From an uncultured Bacillota bacterium (GTDB taxonomy: Bacteria > Bacillota > Clostridia > Oscillospirales > Oscillospiraceae): a DNA stretch of 32,256 nt. The translations under genes were made by a program, and so were the position numbers. Where the stretch lies: the NCBI GenBank assembly GCA_947650875.1, contig CANSXE010000019.1, forward strand, positions 1 to 32,256. The letters are read 5' to 3'. Position 1 is the first letter of the stretch, and each line of letters starts with the position of its first letter. Under the pieces are notes generated by a model. That model saw nothing but the letters and a program-made list of their open reading frames with translations. It searched no databases and was not told where the DNA came from. Of the stretch, positions 7,968 to 24,421 are shown piece after piece.

Positions 7968-7970
7968 GGC

Positions 7971-12385: not shown

Positions 12386-12426
12386 ATTTTTAATCCTCCT
12401 TACGGATTTTGTGTCCAATTATAACA

Positions 12427-12455
12427 AGTATAACACAAATGCAACCTTCGGTAAA
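12427..12455 (-). promoter_or_regulatory. Candidate promoter of the NUDIX-walRK operon
   Basis: Minus strand TTTACC (12450-12455), 17-bp spacer, TATACT (12427-12432). A second -10-like TATAAT lies at 12418-12423 with a poorer -35 (TTGCAT, spacer 15). Either places the start about 25-40 bp before the ribosome site of the NUDIX gene. Confidence 0.5.
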
Positions 12456-12570
12456 GACGTATGGGGAATTTTATCTGTGCCGCCCTGTTTTCAACCAAAC
12501 CATGGCGCTATGCAGCGCCGGAACGGCAAGGGCCGTGAACTGTTCCACAAACCATCAAAATGAGCGCAGA

Positions 12571-12631
12571 AAAAGCCCTGTATCTGTTGCGGCACAAGGC
12601 TTTTGTCATGGTGGAGGCGGGGAGAGTTGAA
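12571..12631. repeat. attL: left copy of the 61-bp attachment repeat
   Basis: 61 bp matching 25662-25722 with three mismatches, all C/T transitions. The right part (12607-12631, 25 bp identical) copies the last 23 nucleotides of the tmRNA gene (acceptor and T-arm 3' half) plus two bases. The left part is the tmRNA terminator hairpin (12571-12581 with 12594-12604). The stem here has a G-U pair only in RNA made from the minus strand, consistent with the original downstream terminator of ssrA now cut off from it. Confidence 0.92.
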
Positions 12632-12735
12632 TTTACTTTTGCTTGAAAAATGCTGTAAATAGCCGTAAAAGAATCCAGTGATTGCAAGGGCTACCGGCCG
12701 AAAATAGAAAATATTGTTAATCTATGTAAATCGGC

Positions 12736-12759
12736 TAAAGGGAAAATACAAGGGAAAAC
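12736..12759 (+). repeat. Left arm-type direct repeat pair
   Basis: Two AAGGGAAAA units spaced 12 bp start-to-start (12738 and 12750). The whole 24 bp matches 25619-25642 with two mismatches and the same orientation. The position just inside the att core fits integrase N-terminal-domain (arm) sites. Confidence 0.7.
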
Positions 12760-12865
12760 TTTTTATTTAAGGTGTCCCATAAACCGGACAACAAATCCTA
12801 ATCTAGGACACAGTTCCCCCTCCTGCGTCTCCTCAGCACCATCCGGGGCAGCTGGAGACAAATAG

Positions 12866-12894
12866 AGAGGGCCAGGGGAGCACCCCGGCCCTCT
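12866..12894 (-). terminator. Terminator after the RecA-like gene
   Basis: AGAGGGCC/GGCCCTCT stem, one bulged A, then GGGG/CCCC and a 4-base loop, 47 bp past the RecA-like stop. The minus strand continues with a short T-rich stretch (CTATTTGTCT). Likely the end of the element's minus-strand transcription. Confidence 0.65.
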
Positions 12895-12941
12895 GCCGCA
12901 AACTTACTACCCCATAGCCGCCTACCGGATGATTTCCTTCT

Positions 12942-13706
12942 TCACGCACACACCCCCTCCCCATAAAGCAAACTGGCCGTTGCCCTCTTTCCGGGTGGCG
13001 CATATTTGCACTTCTCCACCCTGACCAATATCTTTTGACCTGTGACAGTATCAGCTTCTTTAATGGCCCCATACCCATGCGTCTCCAACCGCAGGGATGA
13101 ATAGTATGCTATGGCCCTTCCGCCTGTGGGATGGTCTGGACGTCCATAGAGACAGGGGGCTTTATTCCGCAGCTGGTTCACCAGGATCAGGGTACAGCCG
13201 GTATAATGGAGCACTCCGGCCAGGACGGGCAGGGCTTTGGACAATACCTTTGCTTGCCGCCCCCCCAGCTCCGGCCAGTATTTGCTATTAATGGTATTCC
13301 TCATTTCCTCATTGGTTGGCAGGGCGCACACGCTGTCTATCACGATAGCGCCGAAAGCACCGGTCCGCGCCGCAGCTGTACAGGCATCCAGGGTATCCTC
13401 CAGGGTCTCCAGCCGCAACAGGTAGAGGTCTTGCCCCTTGAGTATGTACGGGGAAAGCCCGCCGTCAGCGTCCACATAGAGGGCAGGACCTGGAAACTGC
13501 TGGGCCAGGTGGAGGGCCAGGGCGGTCTTGCCGCTTCCCTCTGCGCCGAATATCTCCACGATACGGCCACAGGGAACGCCCCCGCCAATCACGGCGTCAA
13601 GCTGGGGCAGGCCTGTGGGGATCACCTCTTGCTCCGGGAGTGAAAAGCCATAGCTGACTTTGGCCTGACAGGCTCTATTGATGGAATCCAATAATTCACA
13701 GTGCAA
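12942..13706 (-). CDS. RecA-like recombinase/ATPase of the element
   Basis: 254-residue RecA-fold ATPase. Walker A GAEGSGKT at 54-61, Walker B AIVIDS near 120-125, and a RecA L2-like region LVNQLRNK (175-182) followed by PTGGRAIAYYSSLRLE (193-208), which parallels the end of the RecA core. It lacks the long C-terminal domain and most of the N-terminal helix region of the roughly 350-residue host RecA, so it is an element-encoded paralogue. Probable role: strand exchange or annealing in replication or integration. The start is TTG at 13706, since GCAAGGAGG lies 10 bp before it and no ATG is near. Last gene before a terminator. RadA or circadian-KaiC-like assignments are less likely because the NQLR/TGG motif is RecA-type. 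Confidence 0.85.
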   Translation of the reverse strand: MHCELLDSINRACQAKVSYGFSLPEQEVIPTGLPQLDAVIGGGVPCGRIVEIFGAEGSGKTALALHLAQQFPGPALYVDADGGLSPYILKGQDLYLLRLETLEDTLDACTAAARTGAFGAIVIDSVCALPTNEEMRNTINSKYWPELGGRQAKVLSKALPVLAGVLHYTGCTLILVNQLRNKAPCLYGRPDHPTGGRAIAYYSSLRLETHGYGAIKEADTVTGQKILVRVEKCKYAPPGKRATASLLYGEGVCA

Positions 13707-13731
13707 TTTGAATTTTCCTCCTTGCTTTCTG

Positions 13732-13755
13732 GAGGGGGCCGGGTGAGGCCCCCTC
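13732..13755. terminator. Hairpin between HNH-like and RecA-like genes
   Basis: GAGGGGGCC-GGGTGA-GGCCCCCTC, a perfect 9-bp GC stem between the HNH stop and the ribosome site of the RecA-like gene. No T tract follows on the minus strand, so it may reduce rather than end transcription. Confidence 0.5.
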
Positions 13756-13762
13756 TATGTCA

Positions 13763-14209
13763 CTAATTCTTTTTGGGAATAGGCTTCAATAAGGCTTGAC
13801 CACGTTTCCCCGCCGCCCATCTTTTGTTAAATCTTTTACGGGAAATACCTGCAATCTTAGCCCATTCTGTTGCAGTTTTAAGTATGCCGCCTATCTCATA
13901 TTTCGGCGTGTGGCCGATGGGCGCAAATCGCCTGTTGTGAGCTTGTTCCTTCATAGTGGCCCATCGGCAATTATCCGGGCCATAGCCCTTGTTGTTGTCA
14001 ATGCGGTCAAGTGTCAGGTATTCGCGGTAGCCGTGGGAGTAGGCCCAATCTTCAAACGCTTTAAAATTGTGGAGCCATTCGGCACAGATGGTAATACCAC
14101 GGCCCCCATAATTTATATAACCTGTAGCTTGTGGATTGGTACACCGCTGTTTCATACACACCCAAATTGTATATAGACGTGTCTTGCTTGGGGATCGGTT
14201 TGTATACAT
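13763..14209 (-). CDS. HNH-like phage endonuclease-family protein
   Basis: 148 residues from the ATG at 14209. The pattern W-MKQRC-NP, YGGRGI-IC-EW, LDRIDNNKGYGPDNCRW, EQ-HNRR is that of a widespread phage family with an HNH/AP2-like homing-endonuclease core. Conserved Cys, His and Asn residues fit metal and DNA binding. The C-terminal part (YEIGGILKTATEWAKIAGISRKRFNKRW) looks like a helix-turn-helix recognition tail. An upstream TTG at 14284 would add 25 residues without a good ribosome site, so the ATG after AGGGGGAATTTT was taken. It lies downstream of a small RHH gene in the same direction. Probably a self-mobilising or packaging-associated nuclease, activity not shown. Confidence 0.7.
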   Translation of the reverse strand: MYTNRSPSKTRLYTIWVCMKQRCTNPQATGYINYGGRGITICAEWLHNFKAFEDWAYSHGYREYLTLDRIDNNKGYGPDNCRWATMKEQAHNRRFAPIGHTPKYEIGGILKTATEWAKIAGISRKRFNKRWAAGKRGQALLKPIPKKN

Positions 14210-14345
14210 AAAATTCCCCCTATCAAAAAGTCGCAGTTGACCTTTTGCGGGGGGTGTAGTAAAATATTTACACCACTCCCGCAAGGGTCTGGGCTATATC
14301 GGTTCACTGTCCGTTCCGCCAAGTTCAGTCAGTGGGCCGATATTC

Positions 14346-14516
14346 TTATTTCTGGGCCAAAAGAAGATGTATTCCCCGCCGTATGGCCTCCGCCCGTGTA
14401 ATAGCATGGGATTTGCAGTATTCATCAAGTCTCTGCGTTGTTTCATCATCGAGCCTAACTTTGAGGTCATTTGATTTTGGGTTTTCTGCTTTTGGTCGGC
14501 CTGTTCGTGGAGACAC
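14346..14516 (-). CDS. Small ribbon-helix-helix (CopG-like) protein, start GTG
   Basis: 56-residue protein that an ATG-only reading misses. It opens VSPRTGRPKAENPKSNDLKV. The beta strand DLKVRLDDE is followed by the helix ETTQRLDEYCKSHA and the second helix TRAEAIRRGIHLLLAQK, a classic RHH DNA-binding fold with a basic N-terminal arm. The GTG at 14514-14516 follows AAGTGAGGTGATACA. A textbook promoter lies 34 bp upstream. The RHH dimer is a transcriptional regulator, plausibly of its own promoter. A longer open frame across this region is out of frame with the protein signal. Confidence 0.8.
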   Translation of the reverse strand: MSPRTGRPKAENPKSNDLKVRLDDETTQRLDEYCKSHAITRAEAIRRGIHLLLAQK

Positions 14517-14549
14517 TGTATCACCTCACTTTTTGAGTTCCACAAATTT

Positions 14550-14578
14550 ATTATACTATTTGGGTTCCGGAAAGTCAA
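14550..14578 (-). promoter_or_regulatory. Promoter of the small RHH gene
   Basis: TTGACT (14573-14578), exactly 17 bp, TATAAT (14550-14555) on the minus strand. It lies 34 bp before the GTG start. The gene is therefore expressed independently of the element operon. Confidence 0.82.
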
Positions 14579-14661
14579 GCGGTTTTTCATAATTCCTCCG
14601 GGGTTGTTTTGGGGCTGCTTATCTCTCTCGCTGTCCAGGCTGTGAGGTATGCGGCCCTCTC

Positions 14662-14941
14662 TCATGCCACGCAGAAGCGCCGGGTCGTGGTGGTGGCCTT
14701 GCTGTACTGGCCGTAGAGGTCGCCGTGGTCGGCCTTGAACCGCTTGCTGTCGAACCGGCTGCTGACCACGTTCTTCCATGTGGCTTTCCATCCGTCCCCC
14801 TGAAGGACTTCCGCCCCCTGCTCCACCATAGCCCCCCTTGATCTTGTCGGTGAGGGCTTCGGCCTCCGTCTCCAGCTCTGCGATCATGGCCCGGACGCTC
14901 ATCAGGTCCCGAGCAGTGCTGTTAAGTTCGGTCATGCTCAT
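14662..14941 (-). pseudogene. Phage small protein with a one-base frameshift at a G6 tract
   Basis: The ATG at 14941 follows AAGGAGGTAACACA. The first 36 codons (MSMTELNSTARDLMSVRAM.., then EAEALTDKIK) are in one frame. The rest, starting MVEQGAEVLQGDGWKATW and ending TTTTRRFCVA, continues in the other frame and stops at 14662-14664. The switch lies at a run of six G on the coding strand (14832-14837). Removing one G gives a continuous protein of about 92 residues. Lengths agree: 280 nt is one more than a multiple of three. Either the gene is broken, a base was miscalled in the homopolymer, or the ribosome slips. Function unknown; the sequence looks like a small phage protein with an N-terminal helix. 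Confidence 0.72.
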
Positions 14942-15000
14942 TGTGTTACCTCCTTCATATTTTGGGGGATTGTCCCGGCGGCAGTGGGCTTCTGTCCTAA

Positions 15001-15099
15001 TCAGGCCCTTCCCTTTCGGAAATCCCGTCCCGCTCTTATCTCTGGTGCTTTACCCTTCCGGGCCTTCTCCAGTTGGCCGGTGCTGTTCCCTGTTGACAT
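15001..15099 (-). CDS. Possible leaderless 32-residue basic peptide
   Basis: An open frame MSTGNSTGQLEKARKG.. to RKGRA begins with an ATG located at the predicted start site of a minus-strand promoter and ends at a TGA at 15001. There is no ribosome site, so it would have to be a leaderless message. It would precede the frameshifted gene by 59 bp. It may be only chance coding in the leader. Low confidence. Confidence 0.22.
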   Translation of the reverse strand: MSTGNSTGQLEKARKGKAPEIRAGRDFRKGRA

Positions 15100-15104
15100 T
15101 ATGT

Positions 15105-15133
15105 ATTATACTATATCTGCACAGATATGTCTA
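15105..15133 (-). promoter_or_regulatory. Minus-strand promoter of the divergent region
   Basis: TAGACA (15128-15133), 17-bp spacer, TATAAT (15105-15110), driving the frameshifted gene. The spacer contains the first 13-bp repeat and its palindrome ATATCTG-CA-CAGATAT, placed to act as an operator. Confidence 0.72.
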
Positions 15134-15193
15134 TTGACATAGTACACATATTTGCGTAGATATATTTGTTTGATTTACCTATTTACACAGATA
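15115..15193 (+). repeat. Three 13-bp direct repeats in the divergent promoter region
   Basis: ATCTGCACAGATA (15115-15127), ATTTGCGTAGATA (15150-15162), ATTTACACAGATA (15181-15193): motif ATYTRCRYAGATA, start-to-start spacing 35 and 31 bp (about three helical turns). The first lies between the minus-strand -35 and -10 boxes, the third overlaps the plus-strand -35 box. Candidate operators for the adjacent RHH regulator. Confidence 0.68.
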
Positions 15194-15210
15194 GACGGGC
15201 GTGGTATAAT
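15182..15210 (+). promoter_or_regulatory. Plus-strand promoter of the tandem-RHH gene
   Basis: TTTACA (15182-15187), 17 bp, TATAAT (15205-15210). The predicted start is about 50 bp before the ribosome site of the downstream gene. The third 13-bp repeat covers the -35 box. Confidence 0.82.
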
Positions 15211-15268
15211 AGGACCATAATGGAGGAGGTGTCCGAATAAATCGGCGCTCCCCAGGGAGGTGAAATAT

Positions 15269-15625
15269 ATGCCAGTGTCAAAGGCACAGCAGAAAGCCGT
15301 CAATAAGTATATGGCGGCAAATTATGACAGAATAAATCTTACCATTCCAAAAGGCCAAAGGGATATTATCAAAGCCCACGCAGACAGCCAGGGCGAAAGC
15401 ACCAACGCCTTTATAGGCCGGGCCATCACTGAGACAATGGAGCGGGACGCAGGAGGGGTGCAGGAGACCACGGGGCCGGGGGGGCTATCCCTGCCCCCGG
15501 AAGCCCTTAAAACGGCCCAGGAGGCCGCAGAAGCCGCAGAGGAGACGGTTCCCGTGTTTGTTGCTCGTGCTATCGAAAGCCGGGCGAAGCTGGACCAACG
15601 GAAGAAGCCTAAAGGAGGTCAATAA
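15269..15625 (+). CDS. Protein with two tandem ribbon-helix-helix domains
   Basis: 118 residues from the ATG at 15269, which has GGGAGGTGA 7 bp upstream; a GTG three codons earlier overlaps that ribosome site and was not used. An N-terminal basic stretch leads to an Arc-like RHH domain (23-53: strand NLTIP, helix IIKAHADSQG, second helix STNAFIGRAI). After a Gly/Pro linker a second segment of equal length (72-102: strand GLSLP, ALKTAQEAAEA, TVPVFVARAI) aligns without gaps, with shared Leu, Pro, Ala, Glu, Phe, Arg, Ala, Ile. RHH proteins normally dimerise to bind DNA; a two-domain chain could do so as a pseudodimer. Predicted role: regulator of this cassette. The partner protein follows 1 bp after. 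Confidence 0.8.
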   Translation: MPVSKAQQKAVNKYMAANYDRINLTIPKGQRDIIKAHADSQGESTNAFIGRAITETMERDAGGVQETTGPGGLSLPPEALKTAQEAAEAAEETVPVFVARAIESRAKLDQRKKPKGGQ

Positions 15626-15626
15626 A

Positions 15627-15809
15627 ATGAAGGAGGTTGACATTATGACAGAGAAGGAACAGGCCACAAATATGATCGACGTCTATACGGACTTGCTCCG
15701 CATTAAACAGGCGGCGGACAAGGAGAAAGAGGTCAACAACCAGCTCCGCAAGGCAAAGGCAAAGCTGGAGGCACTCGGGGTCGTGGTAGAGGATTTGGTC
15801 ATTGAATGA
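15627..15809 (+). CDS. Small acidic coiled-coil-like protein, unknown function
   Basis: 60 residues from the ATG at 15627 (AAAGGAGGT upstream, inside the end of the RHH gene). A second ATG at 15645 also has AAGGAGG and would give 54 residues (MTEKEQATNM..). The sequence is charged and helical: IDVYTDLLRIKQAADKEKEV, then NNQLRKAKAKLEALG. It suggests a coiled coil. Cotranscribed and probably translationally coupled with the tandem-RHH gene. It could be an accessory or antitoxin-like partner, but no toxin is recognisable. No family recognised. Confidence 0.65.
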   Translation: MKEVDIMTEKEQATNMIDVYTDLLRIKQAADKEKEVNNQLRKAKAKLEALGVVVEDLVIE

Positions 15810-15815
15810 CAGCAA

Positions 15816-15841
15816 AGGGCCGGGGGATTTCCCCCGGTCCT
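15816..15841 (+). terminator. Terminator between convergent genes
   Basis: An 11-bp stem rich in G-C (from AGGGCCGGGGG to its partner CCCCCGGTCCT, one G-T pair) with a 4-base loop, followed by CTTTTTATC on the plus strand. Located between the small plus-strand gene and the end of the minus-strand operon. Confidence 0.85.
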
Positions 15842-15848
15842 CTTTTTA

Positions 15849-16478
15849 TCAAAAGTTCTTGATTGCGTTCTCAGTCAGCTGCTCCCACTGGCTGGAGATG
15901 GATAAGACATAGCTGGGTGCTCCCTTGCCGTGGCTCTGGCCGGTACAAATCCGGGCTGTGTCCTCCAGGTTCTTCCATGTGTCCAGAACGCCAGCCGGGC
16001 CAGCTTCCGCAGCCCTGGCCAGCATGATAAGCCGCTTTCGCTTCTCGGGGTCCCCCTCTGTTTCCGCCAGCCCTTTTACATGCTGGGCAATCAGCCGCTG
16101 CATAGTAAAATTGCCGCTGTACCTGTTATAGAACACCTCCAGCTCATCCACCGAAAGAATCCCGCTCTGGAGGATAGTCAGTCCGTTGGGGTCCACCTCC
16201 TCGGGGTCCGCCATGTTCGTTTTTGCCAGGGTGCTTTTCAGGGCTTCCCCGATCTCCTTCATCTGCCGGTCGAAGTCCGTCCACACGCTATTGTCAATCA
16301 GGTCAAAGGCGGCGCGGGCCTTGTTCAGGTTATGCTCTGCAAGCAGTTTGTCGTCTTCATCGCACCGCCGCCTGTCCTCCTCCGCAGCCTTCAAGCGGTT
16401 ATAGGCTTCTGTCCATTTGGTCCGGGCTTCTTTAAAGGCATGGTCCAGCTGGACCGCATAAATGGAATATTTACTCAT
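15849..16478 (-). CDS. Element protein of unknown function (209 residues)
   Basis: No domain recognised. The N-terminal 90 residues are strongly helical and charged (AFKEARTKWTEAYNRLKAAE, LLAEHNLNKARAAFDL), like a coiled coil. The centre contains DELEVFYNRYSGNFTMQRLI, and the C-terminus ends SQWEQLTENAIKNF. Neither signal peptide nor membrane segment is visible. The ATG at 16478 follows AAGGAGATGTAATTTT. Last gene of the long minus-strand run before the regulatory cassette. Its place downstream of the tape measure gene would, in ordinary phages, be occupied by distal-tail genes, but the sequence does not resemble them. Confidence 0.7.
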   Translation of the reverse strand: MSKYSIYAVQLDHAFKEARTKWTEAYNRLKAAEEDRRRCDEDDKLLAEHNLNKARAAFDLIDNSVWTDFDRQMKEIGEALKSTLAKTNMADPEEVDPNGLTILQSGILSVDELEVFYNRYSGNFTMQRLIAQHVKGLAETEGDPEKRKRLIMLARAAEAGPAGVLDTWKNLEDTARICTGQSHGKGAPSYVLSISSQWEQLTENAIKNF

Positions 16479-16496
16479 AAAATTACATCTCCTTTT

Positions 16497-16823
16497 TTAT
16501 TTTACCAGGGCACAGCTGCCGTCACTGTAAAAGGCGCAGCTTTCGCCGCAGTGGGCCATACCGGGGAAGGGGCAGGCCGTCCCGCTCCCCATGCGCCGCT
16601 CCTTGATACCGCAGCCTGTCCCCGTGTAGAGGGCGCAGGAGGTATCGCACCGGGCGTCGTACATACGGCCTTTGAGCGGGCAGGTTATATCCAGCCTTTT
16701 CGGCTTCGTGTCGGGCGGCGGGGCCCAGCTCTTTGCCTGCTCATTCACGTCATGGAGGGCGCTTTTAGGGATCGCCCCCTTTGTGGTATAAACTATGGGT
16801 TCATGCTCTATGAATTTCTGCAT
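16497..16823 (-). CDS. Cysteine-rich small protein, probably metal-binding
   Basis: 108 residues from the ATG at 16823 (AAGGAGGATACATA upstream). The C-terminal half holds about ten cysteines in the pattern CPLKGRMYDARCDTSC, TGCGIKE, ACPFPGMAHCGESC and DGSCALVK, suggesting one or two zinc or iron-sulfur sites. Start and preceding stop overlap (TAATG). Function unknown. Cys-rich small proteins of this look occur in Clostridial phages. Confidence 0.72.
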   Translation of the reverse strand: MQKFIEHEPIVYTTKGAIPKSALHDVNEQAKSWAPPPDTKPKRLDITCPLKGRMYDARCDTSCALYTGTGCGIKERRMGSGTACPFPGMAHCGESCAFYSDGSCALVK

Positions 16824-17035
16824 TATGTATCCTCCTTGTAATTTTCTGTCAGCCATTCATGGTATTGTGCCATTACCGAAAAAAGCATTGTAAACAGAGA
16901 GTTCACCAAAAATCGGTATTGTTCATCCGAAAACTTGTTGCCAATCTCATTTAGCCATTCACCTCCAAAACGGCGGGCGTCATAATCAAATTTCTTTTGA
17001 TCAAAACTGTCTATAAATTTCTGAAAAGGTTTCAT
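16823..17035 (-). CDS. Small element protein, unknown function (70 residues)
   Basis: Begins MKPFQKFIDSFDQKKFDYDA; the middle is helical (EQYRFLVNSLFTMLFSVMAQ) and amphipathic to hydrophobic. Starts 7 bp after the tape measure gene and overlaps the next gene by a TAATG junction, so it belongs to the same transcript. No family recognised. Confidence 0.65.
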   Translation of the reverse strand: MKPFQKFIDSFDQKKFDYDARRFGGEWLNEIGNKFSDEQYRFLVNSLFTMLFSVMAQYHEWLTENYKEDT

Positions 17036-17042
17036 ACCGTGC

Positions 17043-18836
17043 TTATCCTCTCACAAGGTCCACACCCATACGCCGCTGCTCGCTCTGGTTATATGGGTAA
17101 ATCAAACGGGCGAACTTCTGCCCGTCAATCGACAATTCGACAACCCCAGGGCCGCCCCCTCTGTTCTGATTCAAAAGCCCGCTTTCGTGAAGTGTCTCCA
17201 TAAATCCCTGCTTAATGGTAGCCAGGGGGGCTTCCACGTTGGTGCCGCTGCGCTGGTCGCCCAGCACGGCTAAAAACTCGCTGTTGGGAGAGATCACCGC
17301 CCCTTGTGCCAGGTGGGGGAGGTCGTTCAGGCTGTAAGCGGAGATTTCCCCGGCGTAAGCAGCCATGCGCGGGGAGTAAGAGCGCCCGGAGCCTCCATAA
17401 TCAGTTACAGAAACAGGACTAGCAGAAGAACTAACCCCAAACAACTCTCTGAACCAATCAATCAGGGACATTACTTTATCAATCACCCATTGAATACCGT
17501 CCCCTATCGTTTTCAAGATGCTGTTTATGGCATTCCGGAAACCTTCACTTGTGGCCCACAGCGTCATAAGGGCTGTGACAACTCCCACAATGGCTGTCGC
17601 AATTAAGACAAACGGGTTTGCATTCATAACTGCATTTAAAAGCCCCTGAGCAATAGTCTGTCCCTCTGTTGCAACGGTCAGCATTTGGATAACCTTTGTA
17701 ATTGAGCTCGCCACCTGATAGGCCAGCGTGGCCGCTTTCAAGGTCACAAATGCAACCGCTGCTGCCGTAACAACCGCCCCGAGATTTTCAAATAGTCCAG
17801 CTAAAAACGGAACTTTCTCCGCAAGGCTGTGACCGATTGAATCTATAGCTTGTCTGATAGCTTCAGTGAGTACAGTCAGCAGTTCTGGAAGTGCGCCCGC
17901 AAGGCCTTGAATAAGCGTTCCTGCCGCCTGAATAAGCGGGGGTAGAATTGTTTCCATCATTTCAGGCAATTTCTCAGCAATGATGGGGGCCAGTTGTGTG
18001 ACCATCTCACCAATACGAGTCAGAATGATCTCAATCCGGGGGATAAGGTTTTCCATAGCTGTCTCAAAGCTGCTTGTAAATTCTCCCATCAGTTTGCCGA
18101 GGTCTGCGTTGTCGTTCCCTATTCCGGCCACAAGGTTTTGCCATGCAGAACGCATAGACGCTATACTCCCATCAATGGTGCTTGCCGTCTCCTCCGCCGT
18201 GGTGCCAGTAATTCCAAGATCAGACTGTACAACGTGAATAGCTTCAACGATATCGGAGAAAGAGGAAATATCAAAGTGGATACCAGATAATTGCTCGGCG
18301 TCCGCAAGTAGACGTTCCATCTCCTCCTTTGTACCGCCATAACCCAACTTTAAGTTGTCCAACATGGTATAATTCTGCTTCGCAAACCCCTGATAGGCAT
18401 TCTGTATGCTCTCCATGCTGGTGCCCATTTTGTTGGCGTTGTCCGCCATATCAACAATGGCCTGGTCCGCAATGGTGGCCGCTTTTTCGGTGTCCCCGCC
18501 CAGGCTTTGCAGCAGACTGGCCGAGAAGCTGGTGACGGTCTCCATGTACTGGTTAGCGGACAGCCCAGCGGTCTTATAGGCGTTATTGGCATACTCCATC
18601 ACTTTTTCACTGGAGGTTTTGAACAAGGTTTCCACACCGCCAACAAGCTGTTCATATTCGGCGTATGCCTCTGTGGAATCTTTTGTCAGCTTCCCGATAG
18701 CGACGCCCGCCGCTCCGGTCGCAGCTGTCATGCCGGCAAGTCCCTTTTTTGCCACGCTTCCCAGCCGCTCAAAACTGGACTGAAACTCTTTGCTGTCTAC
18801 TACCGCTCCGATTCTTATGCTTCCATCTAACGCCAT
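17043..18836 (-). CDS. Phage tail tape measure protein
   Basis: 597 residues, short for the family. N-terminal DGSIRIGAVVDSKEFQSSF and the SVAKKGLAGMTAATG stretch, then helical repeats with the tape-measure signature YEQLVGGVETLFKTSSEKV and AYKTAGLSANQYMETVTSFS (also typical of TP901-1-type tapes). The middle holds several hydrophobic helices (LIATAIVGVVTALMTLWAT and the 260-390 region). The C-terminal part (NDLPHLAQGAVISPNSEFL, APLATIKQGFMETL) is the usual end. Role: sets tail length and is ejected into the host membrane. At about 0.15 nm per residue the length would be near 90 nm (inference). The ATG overlaps the end of the minor capsid region, 4 bp apart. Confidence 0.9.
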   Translation of the reverse strand: MALDGSIRIGAVVDSKEFQSSFERLGSVAKKGLAGMTAATGAAGVAIGKLTKDSTEAYAEYEQLVGGVETLFKTSSEKVMEYANNAYKTAGLSANQYMETVTSFSASLLQSLGGDTEKAATIADQAIVDMADNANKMGTSMESIQNAYQGFAKQNYTMLDNLKLGYGGTKEEMERLLADAEQLSGIHFDISSFSDIVEAIHVVQSDLGITGTTAEETASTIDGSIASMRSAWQNLVAGIGNDNADLGKLMGEFTSSFETAMENLIPRIEIILTRIGEMVTQLAPIIAEKLPEMMETILPPLIQAAGTLIQGLAGALPELLTVLTEAIRQAIDSIGHSLAEKVPFLAGLFENLGAVVTAAAVAFVTLKAATLAYQVASSITKVIQMLTVATEGQTIAQGLLNAVMNANPFVLIATAIVGVVTALMTLWATSEGFRNAINSILKTIGDGIQWVIDKVMSLIDWFRELFGVSSSASPVSVTDYGGSGRSYSPRMAAYAGEISAYSLNDLPHLAQGAVISPNSEFLAVLGDQRSGTNVEAPLATIKQGFMETLHESGLLNQNRGGGPGVVELSIDGQKFARLIYPYNQSEQRRMGVDLVRG

Positions 18837-18840
18837 TTTT

Positions 18841-19179
18841 TCACCCCATTTTCAAATATTCTTCAATATCCCGGCACAAATCACCCTTGTGGGCCGCCAT
18901 CGCCGCCACTTCCCAATGGGAGGTTGCTAATGGGTGCTTATCTGTGCTGTACTTTATCCCTTTCCCTTCCCATTGGCGTCGTGCATATGGCTGTTTGTAA
19001 TGGACGCACTCCGGTGTAATGTCCACGGTTTGGTCCAAAGCCCCGCTGTCCATGGGCACATAGTCGGAACAATACGCATGGAGCCGGGTGTGAGCGTAGG
19101 TCATGACTCCATCTCCGAATATGCGCTGGAATGTTTTTTGGGCATTATTGAGCTTTATCTCTTTGATAACAAGTTTCAT
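18841..19179 (-). CDS. Phage minor capsid protein (head-tail joining type)
   Basis: 112 residues. Landmarks are VPMDSGALDQTVDI (about 41-54), VHYKQPYARRQWEGKG (about 59-74) and HPLATSHWEVAAMAAH (about 82-97), recurring in minor capsid proteins of Siphophages. These proteins sit at the head-tail interface. The start overlaps the previous gene by ATGA and the stop is 4 bp before the tape measure gene. Its presence without portal or major capsid genes is unusual for a complete phage. The HK97 gp10-like family is an alternative with similar size and position. Confidence 0.78.
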   Translation of the reverse strand: MKLVIKEIKLNNAQKTFQRIFGDGVMTYAHTRLHAYCSDYVPMDSGALDQTVDITPECVHYKQPYARRQWEGKGIKYSTDKHPLATSHWEVAAMAAHKGDLCRDIEEYLKMG

Positions 19180-19409
19180 GTATCCTCCGATTCATATTTA
19201 AGCCCCGAAGTAAACAGGTCTGGCAAAACTCCATGCCCTTTTCCTTTAAATCTCTCTGCTTCACGATACCTGTCACTCCTCCAAAACTCAATACACTCGC
19301 CAATGGACATATATTCTTTGTGCCCGTCTTTGAAGGTTATGGTAACTTTACTGATTTTGAACTTCTCCGCTTTCGCCTGGAGTTGGGCCAGCTTCGAAAG
19401 AATAGACAT
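19176..19409 (-). CDS. Small element protein, KVTxTFxDG family (77 residues)
   Basis: Starts ATG at 19409 with GGAGGTGTGAA. Sequence SILSKLAQLQAKAEKFKI, then KVTITFKDGHKEYMSIGECI. It is a recognisable relative of the protein at 19652-19903 (same leading helix, same VTF-DG strand). No known domain. It overlaps the minor capsid gene by ATGA. Confidence 0.7.
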   Translation of the reverse strand: MSILSKLAQLQAKAEKFKISKVTITFKDGHKEYMSIGECIEFWRSDRYREAERFKGKGHGVLPDLFTSGLKYESEDT

Positions 19410-19410
19410 T

Positions 19411-19668
19411 TCACACCTCCACATAATCAGCTATGAAGCGTTCTAAATCTCCCATGCTCAAATTAAGACCATCTGTCCCGTCTAGGGGGTCAGCCCGGTT
19501 AAACTCAGCCAGAAGCGCCGCTTTCTCCAGTGTATCCAGGCGTGCCAGCTTTTCCCCCAGATTGAACAGGCTCCGGCTCAGGTCGTCCACAGGGCTTTCC
19601 TGTTCCATCCGTTTTCGCTCTATGGCTTCAGCCAGCGCCGCAAGCCGGGAATCAATACTTGCCACCAT
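19411..19668 (-). CDS. Small element protein, unknown function (85 residues)
   Basis: From the ATG at 19668 (TTTGGAGGTGGGG before it), the sequence begins MVASIDSRLAALAEAIERKR and is mainly helical, with a second helix DDLSRSLFNLGEKLARLD. An in-frame ATG seven codons earlier would include the ribosome site. It lies between the two KVTxTFxDG paralogues and overlaps the upstream gene by 17 bp. No family recognised. Confidence 0.62.
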   Translation of the reverse strand: MVASIDSRLAALAEAIERKRMEQESPVDDLSRSLFNLGEKLARLDTLEKAALLAEFNRADPLDGTDGLNLSMGDLERFIADYVEV

Positions 19669-19903
19669 CCCCACCTCCAAACACTGCATTTAGTGTGCAG
19701 ATTAACCCGATATAGCCGGGGCGCTCCGTCGTAATGGATTGGATTTCACCCAATTCCCTGTCTCTGCACGTCTCAATGGCACCAACGGGGGATGTGGTGA
19801 TTTCTCTGCCATCAGAAAAGGTCACCTTCACCTCACAGGGCTTGCGCTGATCTGCCAGCTGCTGGAGCGCATCCAGCCTCCGGATGATCGTTTTATTATC
19901 CAT
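19652..19903 (-). CDS. Small element protein, KVTxTFxDG family (83 residues)
   Basis: Sequence begins MDNKTIIRRLDALQQLADQR, then VKVTFSDGREITTSPVGAIE and the more acidic tail ERPGYIGLICTLNAVFGGG. It shares the helix plus VTF-DG core with 19176-19409. The start overlaps the end of the preceding gene by 8 bp. Function unknown. The conserved DG turn suggests a small beta fold. Confidence 0.66.
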   Translation of the reverse strand: MDNKTIIRRLDALQQLADQRKPCEVKVTFSDGREITTSPVGAIETCRDRELGEIQSITTERPGYIGLICTLNAVFGGGDGGKY

Positions 19904-20261
19904 TCTCTCCCTCCATTGCGTTCTCCAGCTCTTGCAGCCGGTTCAGAATGTCCACGGTTTCGGTCAGCTTCAAGCCGTGGGACAGGATAGCACGGGCCGC
20001 AGATATGCGGGCCTGGGCGTCCTCCTCTTTGTCCTCCACGATCTCCCGCAGGGTGGACAGGGCCGGAGATATGGCTTGCTGGGCTTGCCGGGTGGCGTCC
20101 TCGACCATGTTCCCAAATGCGTCCCGGTACGCTGCCTGAAACGCTGGGTCTGCCAGATAGTCTCTAAGTGTGCGGGGGGCAATCCCCGCCGCCTTTGCCG
20201 CTGCTGCCTTGCTGGGGGACGTCAGAAGCGCCGCAAGCGCTTTTTGCTGTCTCGGTGTCAT
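19896..20261 (-). CDS. Small-terminase-like helix-turn-helix protein
   Basis: 121 residues from the ATG at 20261 (AGGAGGTGCACT). The N-terminus (QQKALAALLTSPSKAAAAKA, then AGIAPRTLRDYLADPAFQAAY) is a winged HTH as in phage small terminase subunits and the related phBC6A51 proteins: TerS family recognition of pac DNA. The rest is coiled coil (EDKEEDAQARISAARAILSH). The start overlaps the PDDEXK gene by ATGA. In satellites a TerS of their own can redirect packaging of the helper, which would fit here, but an ordinary DNA-binding role is also possible since no large terminase is present. Confidence 0.68.
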   Translation of the reverse strand: MTPRQQKALAALLTSPSKAAAAKAAGIAPRTLRDYLADPAFQAAYRDAFGNMVEDATRQAQQAISPALSTLREIVEDKEEDAQARISAARAILSHGLKLTETVDILNRLQELENAMEGENG

Positions 20262-20608
20262 AGTGCACCTCCTCTCCGCTTTTCGCCGGTTTCTGCCGCC
20301 TGGAAGATGGTCAGCCAATCTGACAGCTTCATACAGACCATCCAGGGGGAGCGGGACCGGCGGAAGAATACGGCGGGGGCTCCGCCCTGGAATCTCTGGG
20401 CATCAGCTTCAGCCTGGGCCATCCACTTCCATATTTCGGTGGTCTCCCGTCGCTTGCACTCAATATGCACGCCGGGGAGGCCGGTCAGGTCCGGTACTTC
20501 ACCGAAAGAGAGGGACCCACCTCTCTCCACGGGGTAGCCGTGTTCCCGCAGGATTGCCGCAAGCTCCCGCTCCCCGGCGGCTCCTTTACGTGCGCTTTTA
20601 GCACCCAT
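20258..20608 (-). CDS. PDDEXK endonuclease, Hjc-like Holliday-junction resolvase family
   Basis: 116 residues. The core is SARKGAAGERELAAILREHG, then PDLTGLPGVHIECKRRE (about 39-55) with the Glu, Asp and E-x-K pattern of PDDEXK nucleases. This arrangement resembles archaeal Hjc and phage resolvase-like proteins. Probably cleaves branched intermediates made during element replication or recombination. It starts 6 bp past the end of the Cys-rich gene. The ribosome site is GGGGGGTAGCTGAT, without a strong Shine-Dalgarno. Confidence 0.75.
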   Translation of the reverse strand: MGAKSARKGAAGERELAAILREHGYPVERGGSLSFGEVPDLTGLPGVHIECKRRETTEIWKWMAQAEADAQRFQGGAPAVFFRRSRSPWMVCMKLSDWLTIFQAAETGEKRRGGAL

Positions 20609-20613
20609 ATCAG

Positions 20614-20940
20614 CTACCCCCCAATATCAACTGCAATCGTAGTCAATGCACAACTGCCACTGATTTTCTCTCCCTTATGGTTGTAACGGTCAACCCACCA
20701 CTCGCACCCGTTGCCTAAACACTCAATATGGGCCTCCCTTCCCACGCTCAACAGTGGGCAGATGGTATCACCTCCGGGCAGAAACATCATCCCAACATTC
20801 CCGCCGCCAAAATCAAGAATCTTTGCGCCCAGCTCCTGAGCCGTGGTCAGGTAGCAGCCACCCTCGGGCTGATCTGTGTACCGATCTGGACAATCTCGCT
20901 CACAGGGCTTTTTGTCAAGGGGACAAATCAATCGTTTCAC
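20614..20940 (-). CDS. Cysteine-rich small protein, probably zinc-binding
   Basis: 108 residues. The GTG at 20940 follows AAAGGAGCGCAAC, overlapping the helicase stop by GTGA. An upstream in-frame ATG at 20958 is possible but weaker. Cysteine pattern: LICPLDKKPCERDCPD at the N-terminus, then CYL, TICPLL, IECLGNGCEWWV and SCAL. This suggests a zinc-ribbon-like arrangement. Function unknown. Confidence 0.68.
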   Translation of the reverse strand: MKRLICPLDKKPCERDCPDRYTDQPEGGCYLTTAQELGAKILDFGGGNVGMMFLPGGDTICPLLSVGREAHIECLGNGCEWWVDRYNHKGEKISGSCALTTIAVDIGG

Positions 20941-22202
20941 GTTGCGCTCCTTTCCCATCCATACCGCTTTGCAGGTGATCCGCCCATCTGGAACAGCCTC
21001 CGGGACGGCTCGTTAAACTCCAGTTTTACTTTGCCTCTGGCCCCAAACTCCCGGTTTTTGAGAATGGTCAGCAGGGAAGAATACCCTAACTCTTGCACTT
21101 TTTCTTCTGGGGCTCGTTCGACCTTGAAAACGTTGTCGGCCCGGTTAGTAATATCGCCGCTGCCTCCCACGTCATCGGTCTCCAGGGGCCGTTTGCCCTC
21201 TGTTTTCCGGGGATGGGCAACCAGGTGGACATGGACCCCCAGCCGCTTACAGAAGTCCGCCAGACGACCTGCAAATGCGCTCTGTGCCCGATAATAGCCT
21301 TGCTCCGCTTCTCCCCGCAGTTGGGCGGTCATGATGTTATCCACAAGGAAAGTGTCACAGCCATACCGGCGGTTGGACCCCTCGAACAGTCTCAAGATCG
21401 TCTCCTCGTCGTGAGCGGCTTTGTCCCTGATGTCTGTGAGAAACAGGGTCCCGTCAAACCAGCGGTCAATGGGCACCTTCACATCATCGTTGACCAGAAA
21501 GAAGCTCTTGCCGGTCAATGGGTCCTCCCGTTTGGTCACATGGAGATAACCAGCCGCCTGTTGGCGAATGAACCGCTTGAATTGTTTTGCTGGCAATTCC
21601 CCGGAGTAGGCACACACCCGCCGGCCCTGATTGATAGCGTCCAGCAGGATTTGTCCCAGCAGGGTGCTTTTGCCCTCACCCCTCCGCCCGGTCCAGACTG
21701 ATAGCTCCCCCGGAGCAAAGCCGCCTATCTCCCGATCCAGCAGGGCCAGACCTGAGCTTGTCCGCTTCGTGTTGGTGTCCCTGTCGCAGTCGATCTCTGC
21801 GACATTGAGCAAACCGGGGGAGGGAAGTTCCTCAGCGTCCATGACCATCTGGTCTATGGCGGAGAGACCGTAGTTGTCCCGTAGCTCCAGGGCAGAAGCG
21901 CAGCCGTGGAAAGCGTCTCTGCCTGGAATAAGGACCGGAAGGGGGAAGCGGGCTTGCAGCTCGCTGGCAATCTCATCCCGGACCGGGCCAGGAGGCACAG
22001 CGACGATTATGTACGGATACCGACCGATAAACTCGGCCCACTCCGTCAGCTCCCGCCAGGGCGTCAAGAGCGCCTTGCACACGGCGTTGACGCCAACAGC
22101 CTGCATATCCTCGGCGTCCTTGCACCAGTACAAACCGAAGGGCTCCGCCTGTGGGTCCATGAATCGGGGCTCGAACAAGAGAGATTCATTTCCAGTAATC
22201 AT
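20937..22202 (-). CDS. DnaB/Twinkle-like replicative helicase
   Basis: 421 residues. Walker A GRRGEGKST at 172-180 inside the RecA-type helicase core that begins LLDREIGGFAPGELSVWTGR. A Walker B-like stretch DTFLVDNIM is followed by HVHLVAHPRK (a DnaB-type sensor loop), and the arginine-containing tail is FGARGKVKLEFNE. The N-terminal 130 residues include a TOPRIM-like part (YIIVAVPPGPVRDEIA), as in phage primase-helicases. Unwinds DNA for element replication. The start overlaps the upstream gene by 17 bp; AGGGGCCGAGG is the ribosome site. A RadA-type assignment is less likely. Confidence 0.82.
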   Translation of the reverse strand: MITGNESLLFEPRFMDPQAEPFGLYWCKDAEDMQAVGVNAVCKALLTPWRELTEWAEFIGRYPYIIVAVPPGPVRDEIASELQARFPLPVLIPGRDAFHGCASALELRDNYGLSAIDQMVMDAEELPSPGLLNVAEIDCDRDTNTKRTSSGLALLDREIGGFAPGELSVWTGRRGEGKSTLLGQILLDAINQGRRVCAYSGELPAKQFKRFIRQQAAGYLHVTKREDPLTGKSFFLVNDDVKVPIDRWFDGTLFLTDIRDKAAHDEETILRLFEGSNRRYGCDTFLVDNIMTAQLRGEAEQGYYRAQSAFAGRLADFCKRLGVHVHLVAHPRKTEGKRPLETDDVGGSGDITNRADNVFKVERAPEEKVQELGYSSLLTILKNREFGARGKVKLEFNEPSRRLFQMGGSPAKRYGWERSAT

Positions 22203-22767
22203 CCTCGGCCCCTCCCTCCTGCTCTGTCTTGTTCCGGCGCTCCCAGGTGCGGACAGCCGCTTTCCAGTCCTTCATGGCCTGGCCCCCGTTGAGTTTCCAG
22301 CCCCGTGCGGTGTAGTAGTCGATGAAAGCGGCGGGGTCTATCCCGTTCTTACGCTCTGAACAGTAGGTCGCTACCTCGGAAACATCAGGCGGAGCAAAGT
22401 GGGGGCGCTTGGGCGGCTTGCCCGCCCCTTTCGCTCCAGTTCCAGATTCAGATTCAGATACAGTTTCAGTTTCAGTGCTTTCCATTTTTGAAAACCTATG
22501 GTTTTCAGAATCAGAAACCATAGGTTTTTTAGGTGGTCTACCACCTAATTTACCATTGGCTCTCCTGTCCTTATTTGCGTCAATGCTGGGCCGGGCAACC
22601 GTGAAAACGGCCCTGGACATGGCGTCTTTTAAGTCTGGTTCTACCCCATACAGGGCATAGTCACAAATGGCAAGAAGCGTTGCCAGCTTGTTTTCATCGG
22701 TCATTTCCTCGATTGCGTCCCGAAATGACCGATAGAAAACAAATGATTCCAGAGGACGGTCTATCAT
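22186..22767 (-). CDS. DUF6291-like phage replication protein
   Basis: 193 residues. The N-terminal part (SFVFYRSFRDAIEEMTDENK, then ICDYALYGVEPDL) matches the style of DUF6291 proteins found at phage replication origins. The centre is low-complexity (STETETVSESESGTG), and the C-terminal part (VATYCSERKNGIDPAAFIDY, then AVRTWERRNK) is DnaD-like. Such proteins often act as helicase loaders or origin binders, consistent with the helicase gene that follows. Starts in an ATGA overlap with the upstream gene. Confidence 0.72.
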   Translation of the reverse strand: MIDRPLESFVFYRSFRDAIEEMTDENKLATLLAICDYALYGVEPDLKDAMSRAVFTVARPSIDANKDRRANGKLGGRPPKKPMVSDSENHRFSKMESTETETVSESESGTGAKGAGKPPKRPHFAPPDVSEVATYCSERKNGIDPAAFIDYYTARGWKLNGGQAMKDWKAAVRTWERRNKTEQEGGAEDDYWK

Positions 22768-23156
22768 TCAATCACCGCCTTTTCCACCGCATCGGCCACG
22801 GCGGCGATCTCAGCAGCCCGGAAACGCATGGACCGGATGAATCTCTCCTGCTCCTGGACATCAGCGGCCAAATAGTAACCGCTGATATTGTCGGACAGAA
22901 TCGGGATACCCCGCAGCCGTTCGGCCTGGATCATCCGCCGCACAACCCGCTCTGGCAGACTGGTCAGCTCCTTCAGGTGCCGTAGTGGGACAGCGGCGCT
23001 TTGACCGTGGCCCAGGAAGTTAGAAATTCTTTGACGGCTGGTCGTGGGTGTGGTAGACTGTGTGGTGGAAGTGGTGGCCTGTCTAGTCTCCGCTCCCGCC
23101 CTGTCCCGCTCCACGGTTGCCGCCGTGGGGTGGGGCTTTTTTGCGCCCATGCTCAT
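22764..23156 (-). CDS. Putative DNA-binding element protein (130 residues)
   Basis: From the ATG at 23156 (GGAGGTGAGTGC). A low-complexity Thr/Ser-rich N-terminus (ATTSTTQSTTPTTSRQR) is followed by a folded region HLKELTSLPERVVRRMIQAE resembling a helix-turn-helix, and IPILSDNISGYYLAADVQEQ, the winged part seen in phage regulators of DNA replication. It is translated from an ATGA junction with the excisionase gene. Confidence 0.6.
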   Translation of the reverse strand: MSMGAKKPHPTAATVERDRAGAETRQATTSTTQSTTPTTSRQRISNFLGHGQSAAVPLRHLKELTSLPERVVRRMIQAERLRGIPILSDNISGYYLAADVQEQERFIRSMRFRAAEIAAVADAVEKAVIE

Positions 23157-23344
23157 GCACTCACCTCCTGGGCCTGACGTTTCACCCATTCACGCAATCC
23201 GTCAACAGAGATCAGCGTGCGATTGCCCAGCTTGAACGAGGGAAAGCCCTCTCTGCCTATGTACTGGTAAATCGTGGGTTTTGATACGCCCAGCAGCCGG
23301 GCAGCTTCTGCGGCTCCAATGGCCAGCGGTTCCAGCTTGTCCAC
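23153..23344 (-). CDS. Excisionase-type helix-turn-helix protein
   Basis: 63 residues. PLAIGAAEAARLLGVSKPTI, then YQYIGREGFPSFKLGNRTLI, then DGLREWVKRQ: the MerR-like excisionase fold. A GTG start at 23344 overlaps the upstream stop (TAGTG). It is the expected partner of the integrase, promoting excision by bending DNA near the att arms. Sequence alone cannot separate excisionase from a general regulator. Confidence 0.78.
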   Translation of the reverse strand: MDKLEPLAIGAAEAARLLGVSKPTIYQYIGREGFPSFKLGNRTLISVDGLREWVKRQAQEVSA

Positions 23345-23523
23345 TATCCCACCTCCCCGGCCAACTCCCGGATAATGGAAAAAATCTTCTCCTTTTCCTC
23401 AGCTGGCAGTTCCCGGCGGAGCTTACGGGACAAGGAACAATCTGCGATCCCCAACTTCTCAGCTATCTGCCAGAGTTTGATTCCAGCTCCTGCGGCGGTC
23501 CGTCTGATGTCTTGGTTCTTCAT
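23344..23523 (-). CDS. Small helix-turn-helix protein (59 residues)
   Basis: A gene of 59 codons starting ATG at 23523 with GGAGGTGTGACCA. Sequence MKNQDIRRTAAGAGIKLWQI, then AEKLGIADCSLSRKLRRELP: a short lambda-Cro-like HTH unit. First gene of the minus-strand operon, divergent from the XRE repressor across the operator region. Possibly the Cro counterpart or an antirepressor. Easily missed because of its size. Confidence 0.75.
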   Translation of the reverse strand: MKNQDIRRTAAGAGIKLWQIAEKLGIADCSLSRKLRRELPAEEKEKIFSIIRELAGEVG

Positions 23524-23547
23524 TGGTCACACCTCCAAAAATTGTTG

Positions 23548-23576
23548 TTGACTTCTCTAGTTGTAGAGATTATAAT
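23548..23576 (+). promoter_or_regulatory. Repressor promoter with an operator in the spacer
   Basis: TTGACT (23548-23553), 17 bp, TATAAT (23571-23576). The spacer holds a perfect inverted repeat TCTCTA-GTTG-TAGAGA (23554-23569). Flanking TTGTTGTTG (23542-23550) and CAACAACAA (23585-23593) form a second inverted pair. On the other strand another TATAAT (23569-23574) can serve the minus-strand operon, so one bound repressor could switch both directions. Confidence 0.78.
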
Positions 23577-23702
23577 ATAAACAGCAACAACAAGAGCGTC
23601 CGAGGGCATTGTACCAAAAAAAGGGGCAGGGCGCAAGGCCCAGAACGAATGTTTCAACAGATGTTCACACAATCAGAGCAATAATGAATGGAGTGTATAT
23701 AT

Positions 23703-24320
23703 ATGGCGCATGAAAATGACCGTCTTCCCATTTTTACAGAACGATTCAGGGAACTAAAAGGAAAACAGAACGACACAGAATTTGCGGGATTTTTGGGTAT
23801 TTCCAGACAAACAGTCGGCTTTTATAGTAATGGAGATCGTTTGCCAGACGCCATAACACTAGTAAAAATTTCTCAAAAATGTGGTGTATCTGCTGATTGG
23901 TTACTTGGATTGTCAGATTACAAAAATAAGGAAACTGAGAGTACTTCCGCAAAAGAACTTGGTCTATCTGAAAAATCTGTAAACTTCCTTGCACGGCATA
24001 TCCTCAAACCAGATTTTATTTCGACAATTAATCTTCTAATAGAAGATGCTGCCAATCTGTATGCAGACCCGGATGGGGATGAATCTGTACTTGAGAATAT
24101 CGTTCGACTTTTTGAAGTAGTGCCGTTTGAACTGTCAAGCAGATGGTTTGTAACAACCGATGGAAAACTTTATACTGCGGAACAGGCATTGTCTTTACAA
24201 GAAGAGTACAATAATCTTGTGGATAAAATCTTTATTTCGGATATTATTGAGAATATCCTTCTAGATAAAATTAAGCGAGGGTTGCAACTATTAAAAATTT
24301 ATTCAGATTATCCAAATTAA
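23703..24320 (+). CDS. XRE-family repressor (CI-like)
   Basis: 205 residues from the ATG at 23703. N-terminal HTH: FTERFRELKGKQNDTEFAGF, LGISRQTVGFYSNGDRLPDA, then CGVSADWLLGLSDYK, the XRE/Cro-CI pattern. The C-terminal 120 residues (FLARHILKPDFISTINLLIE..) are not a LexA-type protease domain that I recognise, so self-cleavage is not indicated. Markedly more AT-rich than the rest of the element. Likely controls lysogeny-like maintenance through the operator in its own promoter. An ATG five codons earlier has a poorer ribosome site. Confidence 0.85.
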   Translation: MAHENDRLPIFTERFRELKGKQNDTEFAGFLGISRQTVGFYSNGDRLPDAITLVKISQKCGVSADWLLGLSDYKNKETESTSAKELGLSEKSVNFLARHILKPDFISTINLLIEDAANLYADPDGDESVLENIVRLFEVVPFELSSRWFVTTDGKLYTAEQALSLQEEYNNLVDKIFISDIIENILLDKIKRGLQLLKIYSDYPN

Positions 24321-24323
24321 AAA

Positions 24324-24389
24324 CCGCCCCCGGTGCTGCTAACACCGAGGACGGCTATAAGGGCAGTAAACTTGTACGGCCTACTGCCC
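24324..24389 (+). promoter_or_regulatory. Two hairpins in the leader between repressor and integrase
   Basis: First hairpin 24324-24354: inner stem CGGTG/CACCG with an outer CCG/CGG, two mismatches. Second hairpin 24361-24389: perfect GGGCAGTA/TACTGCCC with a 13-base loop. Neither is followed by a T tract, so they look like RNA structures controlling integrase mRNA rather than terminators. Confidence 0.5.
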
Positions 24390-24421
24390 TCCAATCATAT
24401 CAGAAACAGGAGGAAAAATCA

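Follow-up and report, generated by a model that had tools for sequence, protein, structure and literature searches.

A probable phage satellite with its own terminase small subunit and tape measure protein in the ssrA gene of an Oscillospiraceae bacterium

Phage-inducible chromosomal islands (PICIs) of the SaPI-like type combine an integrase and precise att sites, a length of about 10-16 kb, a divergent repressor and their own terminase small subunit (TerS) without the large subunit (TerL), and they use the tail and structural proteins of a helper phage. Capsid-forming PICIs (cf-PICIs) have their own major capsid, portal and large terminase. Here we analyzed an element of 13.1 kb lying in a window of 32,256 nucleotides, i.e. 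the whole stretch of DNA under study (contig CANSXE010000019.1 of assembly GCA_947650875.1, from an uncultured Bacillota bacterium of the Oscillospiraceae). The element is integrated at ssrA, the tmRNA gene, and encodes a TerS, a minor capsid protein and a tape measure protein (TMP).

Satellites with their own TMP have been described in Vibrio cholerae: these are the PICI-like elements (PLEs), published in Nature in March 2026 (PMC12987554). In the sections of that article used here they are presented as the first known case of a satellite building chimeric tails; deletions of PLE tmp reduced transduction by 96 to 99.9%, the PLE11 TMP was detected in PLE11 virions, and the legend of Extended Data Fig. 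10 attributes putative tmp genes to cf-PICIs. In the part of PMC4936722 used here the TMP concerned is that of the helper. Within the PMC literature searched, whose coverage excludes preprints and most subscription papers, satellite-encoded TMPs are stated only in the sections of PMC12987554 just cited, for PLEs and cf-PICIs, and nothing useful was found on minor capsid genes in PICIs.

Read from its genes, the element is probably a phage satellite in ssrA that builds chimeric tails from helper parts. Hybrid tails are probable because the element has its own TerS and TMP but no shell genes, and because related elements carry different TMPs. A first-pass annotation of this DNA had proposed a self-contained satellite supplying its own TerS, head-tail joining protein and TMP; gene content and recurrence both support this proposal. 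The features are listed below (aa, amino acids; L numbers designate the loci and contigs compared).

12607-12631, no strand: left att core, displaced ssrA 3' end; exact repeat with 25698-25722
12942-13706, minus strand: RecA/UvsX-like recombinase (PF00154, E 1e-45); the cousin L241 has an 88% identical gene at its corresponding end
13763-14284, minus strand: HNH endonuclease (phrog_3377, E 3e-50)
15260-15625, plus strand: ribbon-helix-helix regulator-like protein (E 3e-24 with phrog_13890, a family of unknown function, and 1e-4 with several Arc-like PHROGs)
15849-16478, minus strand: fast-evolving 209-aa protein whose gene closes the TerS-TMP cassette (homologues in L119, L126, L133, L242, L268 and L277)
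16497-16856, minus strand: conserved Cys-rich protein encoded after the TMP slot (78-79% identical in L119, L126, L133 and L135; 33% in L120)
16823-17035, minus strand: 70-aa protein in the interval between TMP and Cys-rich protein; intact open reading frame (ORF) without significant family match
17043-18836, minus strand: TMP of type A (TMP-A), 597 aa (phrog_6900, E 1e-81)
18841-19179, minus strand: minor capsid or head-tail joining protein (PF11114 Minor_capsid_2, E 1e-10; 96% in L123)
19176-19424, minus strand: small cassette protein (95% identical in L123)
19411-19689, minus strand: small cassette protein, next after TerS in relatives (75-89% identical in L119, L123, L126, L133 and L135)
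19896-20261, minus strand: TerS (phrog_4044, E 2e-6; homologue beside TerL in L125)
20258-20608, minus strand: PDDEXK or RusA-like nuclease (phrog_244, 2e-24; PF24608, 5e-11)
20937-22202, minus strand: DnaB-like helicase (phrog_239, 2e-43)
22186-22767, minus strand: DUF6291 protein, replication-associated by position (PF19808, 4.5e-15)
23153-23344, minus strand: excisionase-like (xis-like) helix-turn-helix protein (PF12728, 1e-12)
23688-24320, plus strand: cI-like repressor (PF01381, 2e-9)
24422-25621, plus strand: tyrosine integrase (phrog_1, 3e-65); 94-95% identical integrase at ssrA in L241
25698-25722, no strand: right att core inside the ssrA 3' end (Rfam tmRNA match and exact repeat)
25700-26045, minus strand: ssrA (tmRNA), integration target (Rfam RF00023, 146.7 bits)

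The genes for integrase, repressor, helicase, TerS-like protein, minor capsid protein and 597-aa TMP are all present by hidden Markov model (HMM) matches, and they are intact, with four-base overlaps at several junctions (e.g. 19176-19179, 20258-20261 and 22764-22767) as had been noted. Six ORFs of the element reach at least 230 aa. Four are assigned (RecA-like, TMP, DnaB-like and integrase) and the remaining two lie on the strand opposite assigned genes, so that there is no room for the large terminase, portal or major capsid, no ORF long enough for any of them being left among the six. The absence of these genes, already reported in the first-pass annotation, is thus based on ORF size, beyond HMM sensitivity alone. 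With PICIs the element shares an integrase and precise att sites at 13.1 kb, a cI-like repressor (plus strand) divergent from the xis-like and DnaB-like replication genes (minus strand), and a TerS without TerL. It departs from their full reliance on helper tail proteins by its intact TMP (17043-18836), the feature of PLE-type tail chimeras. Like cf-PICIs, some of which have putative tmp genes according to the legend cited above, it holds structural genes, but unlike them it has no capsid, portal or large terminase (the only unassigned ORFs of at least 230 aa are the two antisense ones).

The extent first given to the element, 12942-23523, has to be enlarged to 12607-25722, as delimited by a 25-nt exact repeat (12607-12631 and 25698-25722) that is part of a 61-nt repeat at 95% identity. 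Repeats resembling integrase arm sites lie near both ends (12736-12759 and 25619-25642). Terminator and core occur in a second copy at 12420-12631, beside a NUDIX gene, and this copy resembles the integrase end of L241 at 93%. Given this second terminator, what stands on the left could be the vestige of another element or the product of a rearrangement, or else a join made during assembly. In the relatives inspected the NUDIX gene is not adjacent to ssrA, being located elsewhere in related genomes, and comparing the left flank (NUDIX-ssrA) with these relatives revealed no empty integration site.

As in PLEs, within what the cited sections of PMC12987554 describe, the TMP is encoded by the satellite, the other particle parts would be those of a helper, related elements have different TMP types, and small proteins that may be chaperones lie beside the TMP, here in the type-B relatives of the window. 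Unlike PLEs, whose host is V. cholerae and whose helper is ICP1, the present elements belong to Gram-positive gut anaerobes (Oscillospiraceae). Relative to PLEs as described in the same sections, the window element differs by its recognised TerS and its PF11114 minor capsid protein; HMM scans recognised no baseplate hub in it, Rta and BhuB not being searched for directly. PLE function has been shown, whereas the window element is known here through its genes.

The start of TerS is most likely the ATG at 20261, which gives 121 aa. By HMM alone the assignment is weak, and TerS is identified by its adjacency to TerL in relatives together with satellite-biased matches. In L125 a 58% identical homologue immediately precedes a PF04466 large terminase, and L282 has TerS and TerL in one locus. 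Among 18 matches in phage records, the 16 that are named all come from Streptococcus satellites with lengths of 8.4-18.1 kb: two reach 42% along the full protein and 14 are weak (33-34%, E ~1e-5); the other two records are unannotated. One Streptococcus satellite of 13.5 kb, Javan292 (MK448404), the sole record of this group that was opened, resembles the window element in having an integrase, a repressor, a PF11114 protein (2e-28) and a 42%-identical TerS. No TMP was seen in it, its largest late-strand coding sequence (about 474 aa) standing before the PF11114-TerS region. Searched against phage records, the Javan292 PF11114 gene gave 140 matches; the 40 listed comprise two satellites, all others being phages. 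The window PF11114 protein exceeds the Pfam cut-off and also matches phrog_556 (“minor head protein”, 9e-19); it matched no phage record at E 1e-5, and its structure model was too poor for use (predicted local distance difference test, pLDDT, 48.6). The satellite PF11114 protein is devoid of a loop of about 25 aa seen in the aligned phage homologues; in satellite L126 the loop is longer at this place. L125 (12.2 kb contig; 6661-8372) and L124 are of a different element type. L125 has ParA-like and replication proteins, TerS, the PF04466 large terminase and an integrase; no head or tail genes were recognised there, with TerS, TerL and one 237-aa protein as the only HMM-tested proteins.

Besides phrog_6900, TMP-A matches three further TMP PHROG families better than 1e-50. 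It is 65-66% identical to the phage TMPs of L003 (residues 1-481) and L002 (residues 1-471), and it is a mosaic: beyond the part matching L003, residues 485-595 match a TMP of genome G016 at 47%. The idea that such a protein would resize the helper particle found no support. A shortened tape measure is unsupported, the nearest phage TMP (L003) having about 594 aa vs 597 aa here; other phage TMP frames vary widely. A second type, TMP-B, of 680-704 aa (phrog_23464, 2.5e-86; phrog_58, 1.5e-18), is found in the satellite group with proteins of 94-120 aa beside it, the small neighbour standing upstream of the TMP as in a tail operon. The TMP of L120 is of a third type (PF10145, 4e-55; phrog_1533). 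For eight TMPs tested the best-matching PHROGs are seven (6900, 23464, 19074, 1535, 1272, 1068 twice, and 58), two of which are labelled as of unknown function. TMP-A and TMP-B have no BLAST match with each other at E 1e-3, and BLAST kinship is distant between some lettered types: A-H 25%, B-E 26%, F-G 45%, and A-D 48% over 99 C-terminal residues.

We then consider the relatives sharing the backbone. A DnaB search of 64 genomes of the genus matched 31 at E <=0.001, and identity is at least 60% over nearly the whole protein at seven loci in six genomes. Three of these loci (the window, L133 and L135) are TMP-bearing satellites, and a fourth, L132, is a compact cousin without TerS and TMP. The remaining three, L134, L136 and L138, whose contexts were read from ORF lists without HMM, have in common with the window only the helicase (L138, DnaB 61%, has it alone) or the helicase plus DUF6291. 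None of the seven is a larger homologue with head genes on the same backbone. L133/L145 and L135/L148/L242 have the gene order of the window: DnaB, nuclease, TerS, small gene, slot, Cys-rich protein and 209-aa gene. IMG/VR contigs L119, L123, L126 and L142 also fall in the satellite group, from which L120 stands further apart; these contigs may be overlapping populations, and L120 and L142 are cut at an end, L142 starting inside the TMP without the TerS side.

The slot is swapped between close relatives. Compared with the window, L123 shows an identity of 93.6% at 18849-19664 and of 92.6% at 19907-20298; this match ends at the end of the PF11114 gene, beyond which L123 has TMP-B (in a frame diverging from other type-B frames before the contig end) and the window TMP-A. 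The whole cassette is exchanged as well: L132 is 90-91% identical on either side of 15844-20275 and has 1.3 kb of other content in place of the cassette. The elements delimited by repeats are, with TMP, the window (13.1 kb, ssrA) and L145 (12.8 kb, tRNA-Val), and without TMP, L132 (9.8 kb, tRNA-Pro), L241 (10.5 kb, ssrA) and L144 (9.9 kb, tRNA-Thr). At the place of the cassette, L132 (11226-11711, 161 aa) and L241 (5714-6391) share another protein. Genome G079 holds both a TMP-less (L132) and a TMP-B (L133) member of the family.

Outside the genus, a TerS profile of eight rows (one being L125) matched 19 of 394 genomes of the order. The TMP is confirmed by HMM in four of these, namely the window, L266 (phrog_1068, 4e-127; exact att repeats, a 45-nt tRNA repeat, 9.9 kb), L273 (E 8e-226) and L281 (1e-51; 20-nt repeat, 12.9 kb). 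The remaining long ORFs of these loci were judged from the ORF listing, with HMM for L267 and L271; a TMP is possible in L269, L270 and L276, which end <=2.2 kb after TerS, and in L267, which starts inside TerS. Two candidates were discarded: the long ORF of L271 is a DnaC-like loader and the suspected TMP of L178 an AAA ATPase. Scanning genome contigs for DnaB gave 48 loci and added L156 (TMP of 935 aa, phrog_1535, 5e-99; TerS 54%) and L177 from a Desulfoscipio metagenome-assembled genome (MAG) (TMP of 805 aa, phrog_1272, 4e-49; TerS of another family, PF05119, 3.5e-7). Many of the 48 loci resemble larger prophages by ORF size, thus the helicase alone is not a mark of satellites. In total, TerS and TMP occur in a compact setting in 12 contigs including the window, plus L142. 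The other 11, some from other genera, are L119, L120, L123, L126, L133/L145, L135/L148/L242, L156, L177, L266, L273 and L281.

These data bear on the origin of the element. It could derive from a full siphophage that lost its head genes and kept TerS, minor capsid and TMP. Two observations go in this direction: PF11114 and TMP, adjacent in the window, are 2.0-2.4 kb apart with genes between them in phage contigs L002, L003 and L129, and helicase relatives at 41-62% occur in apparent larger prophages. But the compact layout recurs with different TMPs in the 11 other contigs, which largely refutes a prophage remnant. In addition, L145 and L266 have exact att repeats, the named genes are intact, TMP-B is conserved (see below) and the TerS family is common to Streptococcus satellites. 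Homologues of 30-50 kb with the missing genes, named at the outset as the sign of a deletion derivative, were not found for the backbone, the repeat-delimited relatives measuring 9.8-13.1 kb; bigger elements such as L136 and L134 do share replication genes with the window, but none has the full backbone plus head genes. The element is not a one-off deletion derivative, and we regard a remnant as very improbable.

TMP-B is under purifying selection. Its ratio of nonsynonymous to synonymous substitution rates (dN/dS) is 0.139-0.179 over five divergent pairs by NG86 (0.14-0.18; 0.19-0.24 by YN00) and 0.078 (NG86) for a near-identical pair. By NG86 the ratio is 0.118 for PF11114 (window-L123), 0.12-0.17 for TerS (window vs L123, L133 and L242) and 0.32-0.48 for divergent pairs of the 209-aa gene; near-identical pairs give unstable values (TerS L123-L133, 0.65; 209-aa gene L133-L142, 1.1). 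TMP-A against phage TMPs gives 0.08-0.17 with saturated dS. The cassette might also be passive recombinational cargo, i.e. morons acquired from phages, without a role in transfer; in favour of this, cousins devoid of it exist (L132, L144 and L241). TerS and TMP nevertheless co-occur repeatedly, at one slot in close relatives, and the selection on TMP-B also speaks for a function. We consider this cargo hypothesis highly unlikely.

In the preferred reading of a satellite with chimeric tails, induction by a helper siphophage would lead to excision and replication of the satellite, for which the genes are present. The satellite TerS would redirect the helper large terminase to satellite DNA, and the satellite TMP would replace its helper counterpart on the helper tail tube, partnered by the PF11114 head-tail protein in the window and by small chaperone-like proteins in relatives. 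The particles would consist of helper heads with chimeric tails; PLEs are the direct precedent. The region from TerS through the 209-aa gene (15844-20275) would form one exchangeable late cassette and the TMP a replaceable part within it. The satellite would likely gain by evading an exclusion that strikes the helper through its tail, or by being matched to one particular helper or host.

The TMP and PF11114 proteins could instead poison tail or neck assembly of the helper in a dominant-negative manner, satellite particles then having unmodified helper tails. Tail assembly is reportedly targeted by prophage and satellite defence, in a study of Tai (PMC11364771). It is a known target of satellites in the sections used of PMC12987554, with Rta as an example, and one may speculate that the fast-evolving 209-aa gene is an inhibitory factor. 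However, the satellite TMPs uncut by contig ends look full-length and belong to several families, type B has its small upstream protein as in a tail operon, and PLE TMPs are structural according to the same sections. Inhibition thus appears rather unlikely.

Several results weigh against chimeric tails built by a satellite. Among the TMPs seen, TMP-A has its closest kin in phages and not in other satellites, and a single satellite copy of it was found. The model of a chaperone-like protein flanking TMP-B (pLDDT 83.8) gave seven weak chaperone rows among its 50 best matches in the viral library; it matched one unnamed phage protein there (3.7e-5) and nothing in the PDB at E 0.001 or better. Cousins with a related integrase or helicase are without TerS and TMP (L132, L144 and L241). 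The replication block is not confined to satellites: a 98% identical helicase lies at 12522-13775 of L134 (genome G007), a conjugative-like element, with a scrap of DUF6291, indicating that the helicase moves between element types, and L136 (DnaB 62%, DUF6291 45%), beside an apparent TerL, reads as a larger prophage. Searching the host MAG (77% complete) for TMPs returned only the satellite's own, and the TerL search there gave nothing with PF03354 and one weak match with PF04466 (C61, E 1.9e-6), around which no phage genes were recognised. For TMP-B, the IMG/VR contig scan yielded four loci, all of satellite type (L119, L123, L126 and L142), and 27 phage records match pieces of it, none covering 80%; no helper is therefore named.

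The elements thus combine a PLE-like gene logic with capsid-less satellites of Gram-positive gut bacteria, and add TMPs spread over seven best-matching PHROGs and a clean exchange of one TMP for another in near-identical elements. The new kind of parasitism put forward at first holds in part: TerS with PF11114 was known in Javan292 and a satellite TMP in PLEs, while a capsid-less family in Gram-positive hosts, with a slot where tape measures are exchanged, is new. There is about an even chance that these elements form an undescribed, widespread class of Gram-positive gut satellites, independent of the Vibrio PLEs, in which TerS and TMP are the minimal hijacking kit. The TMP would then be the interchangeable part that confers specificity, one slot receiving proteins of distant TMP lineages as the helper tail or host entry changes. 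Whether the TMP, beyond length, decides whose tail the satellite borrows or which cell is entered becomes a testable question. A search rule also follows (TerS and TMP without TerL or capsid) for a class easily filed as prophage debris.

Other genes were noted beside these elements. Sigma-factor-like genes adjoin the TMP in L156 (16280-16864; confirmed by Pfam, Sigma70_r2, 6e-6), and, by reading only, in L273 (just upstream of the TMP) and L281 (14267-15184). Two type-B satellites, L242 (7384-8664, PF02661) and L142 (3077-4357), have a Fic-domain gene on the side of their tRNA-Val; in L133/L145, where no more than about 0.7 kb separates the tRNA from the last gene of the cassette, there is no room for it. 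In the window, the ORF 14294-14941 beside the HNH gene matches L132, L143 and L144 in two pieces, strongly over its first 37 residues, then weakly and offset, and is possibly frame-shifted.

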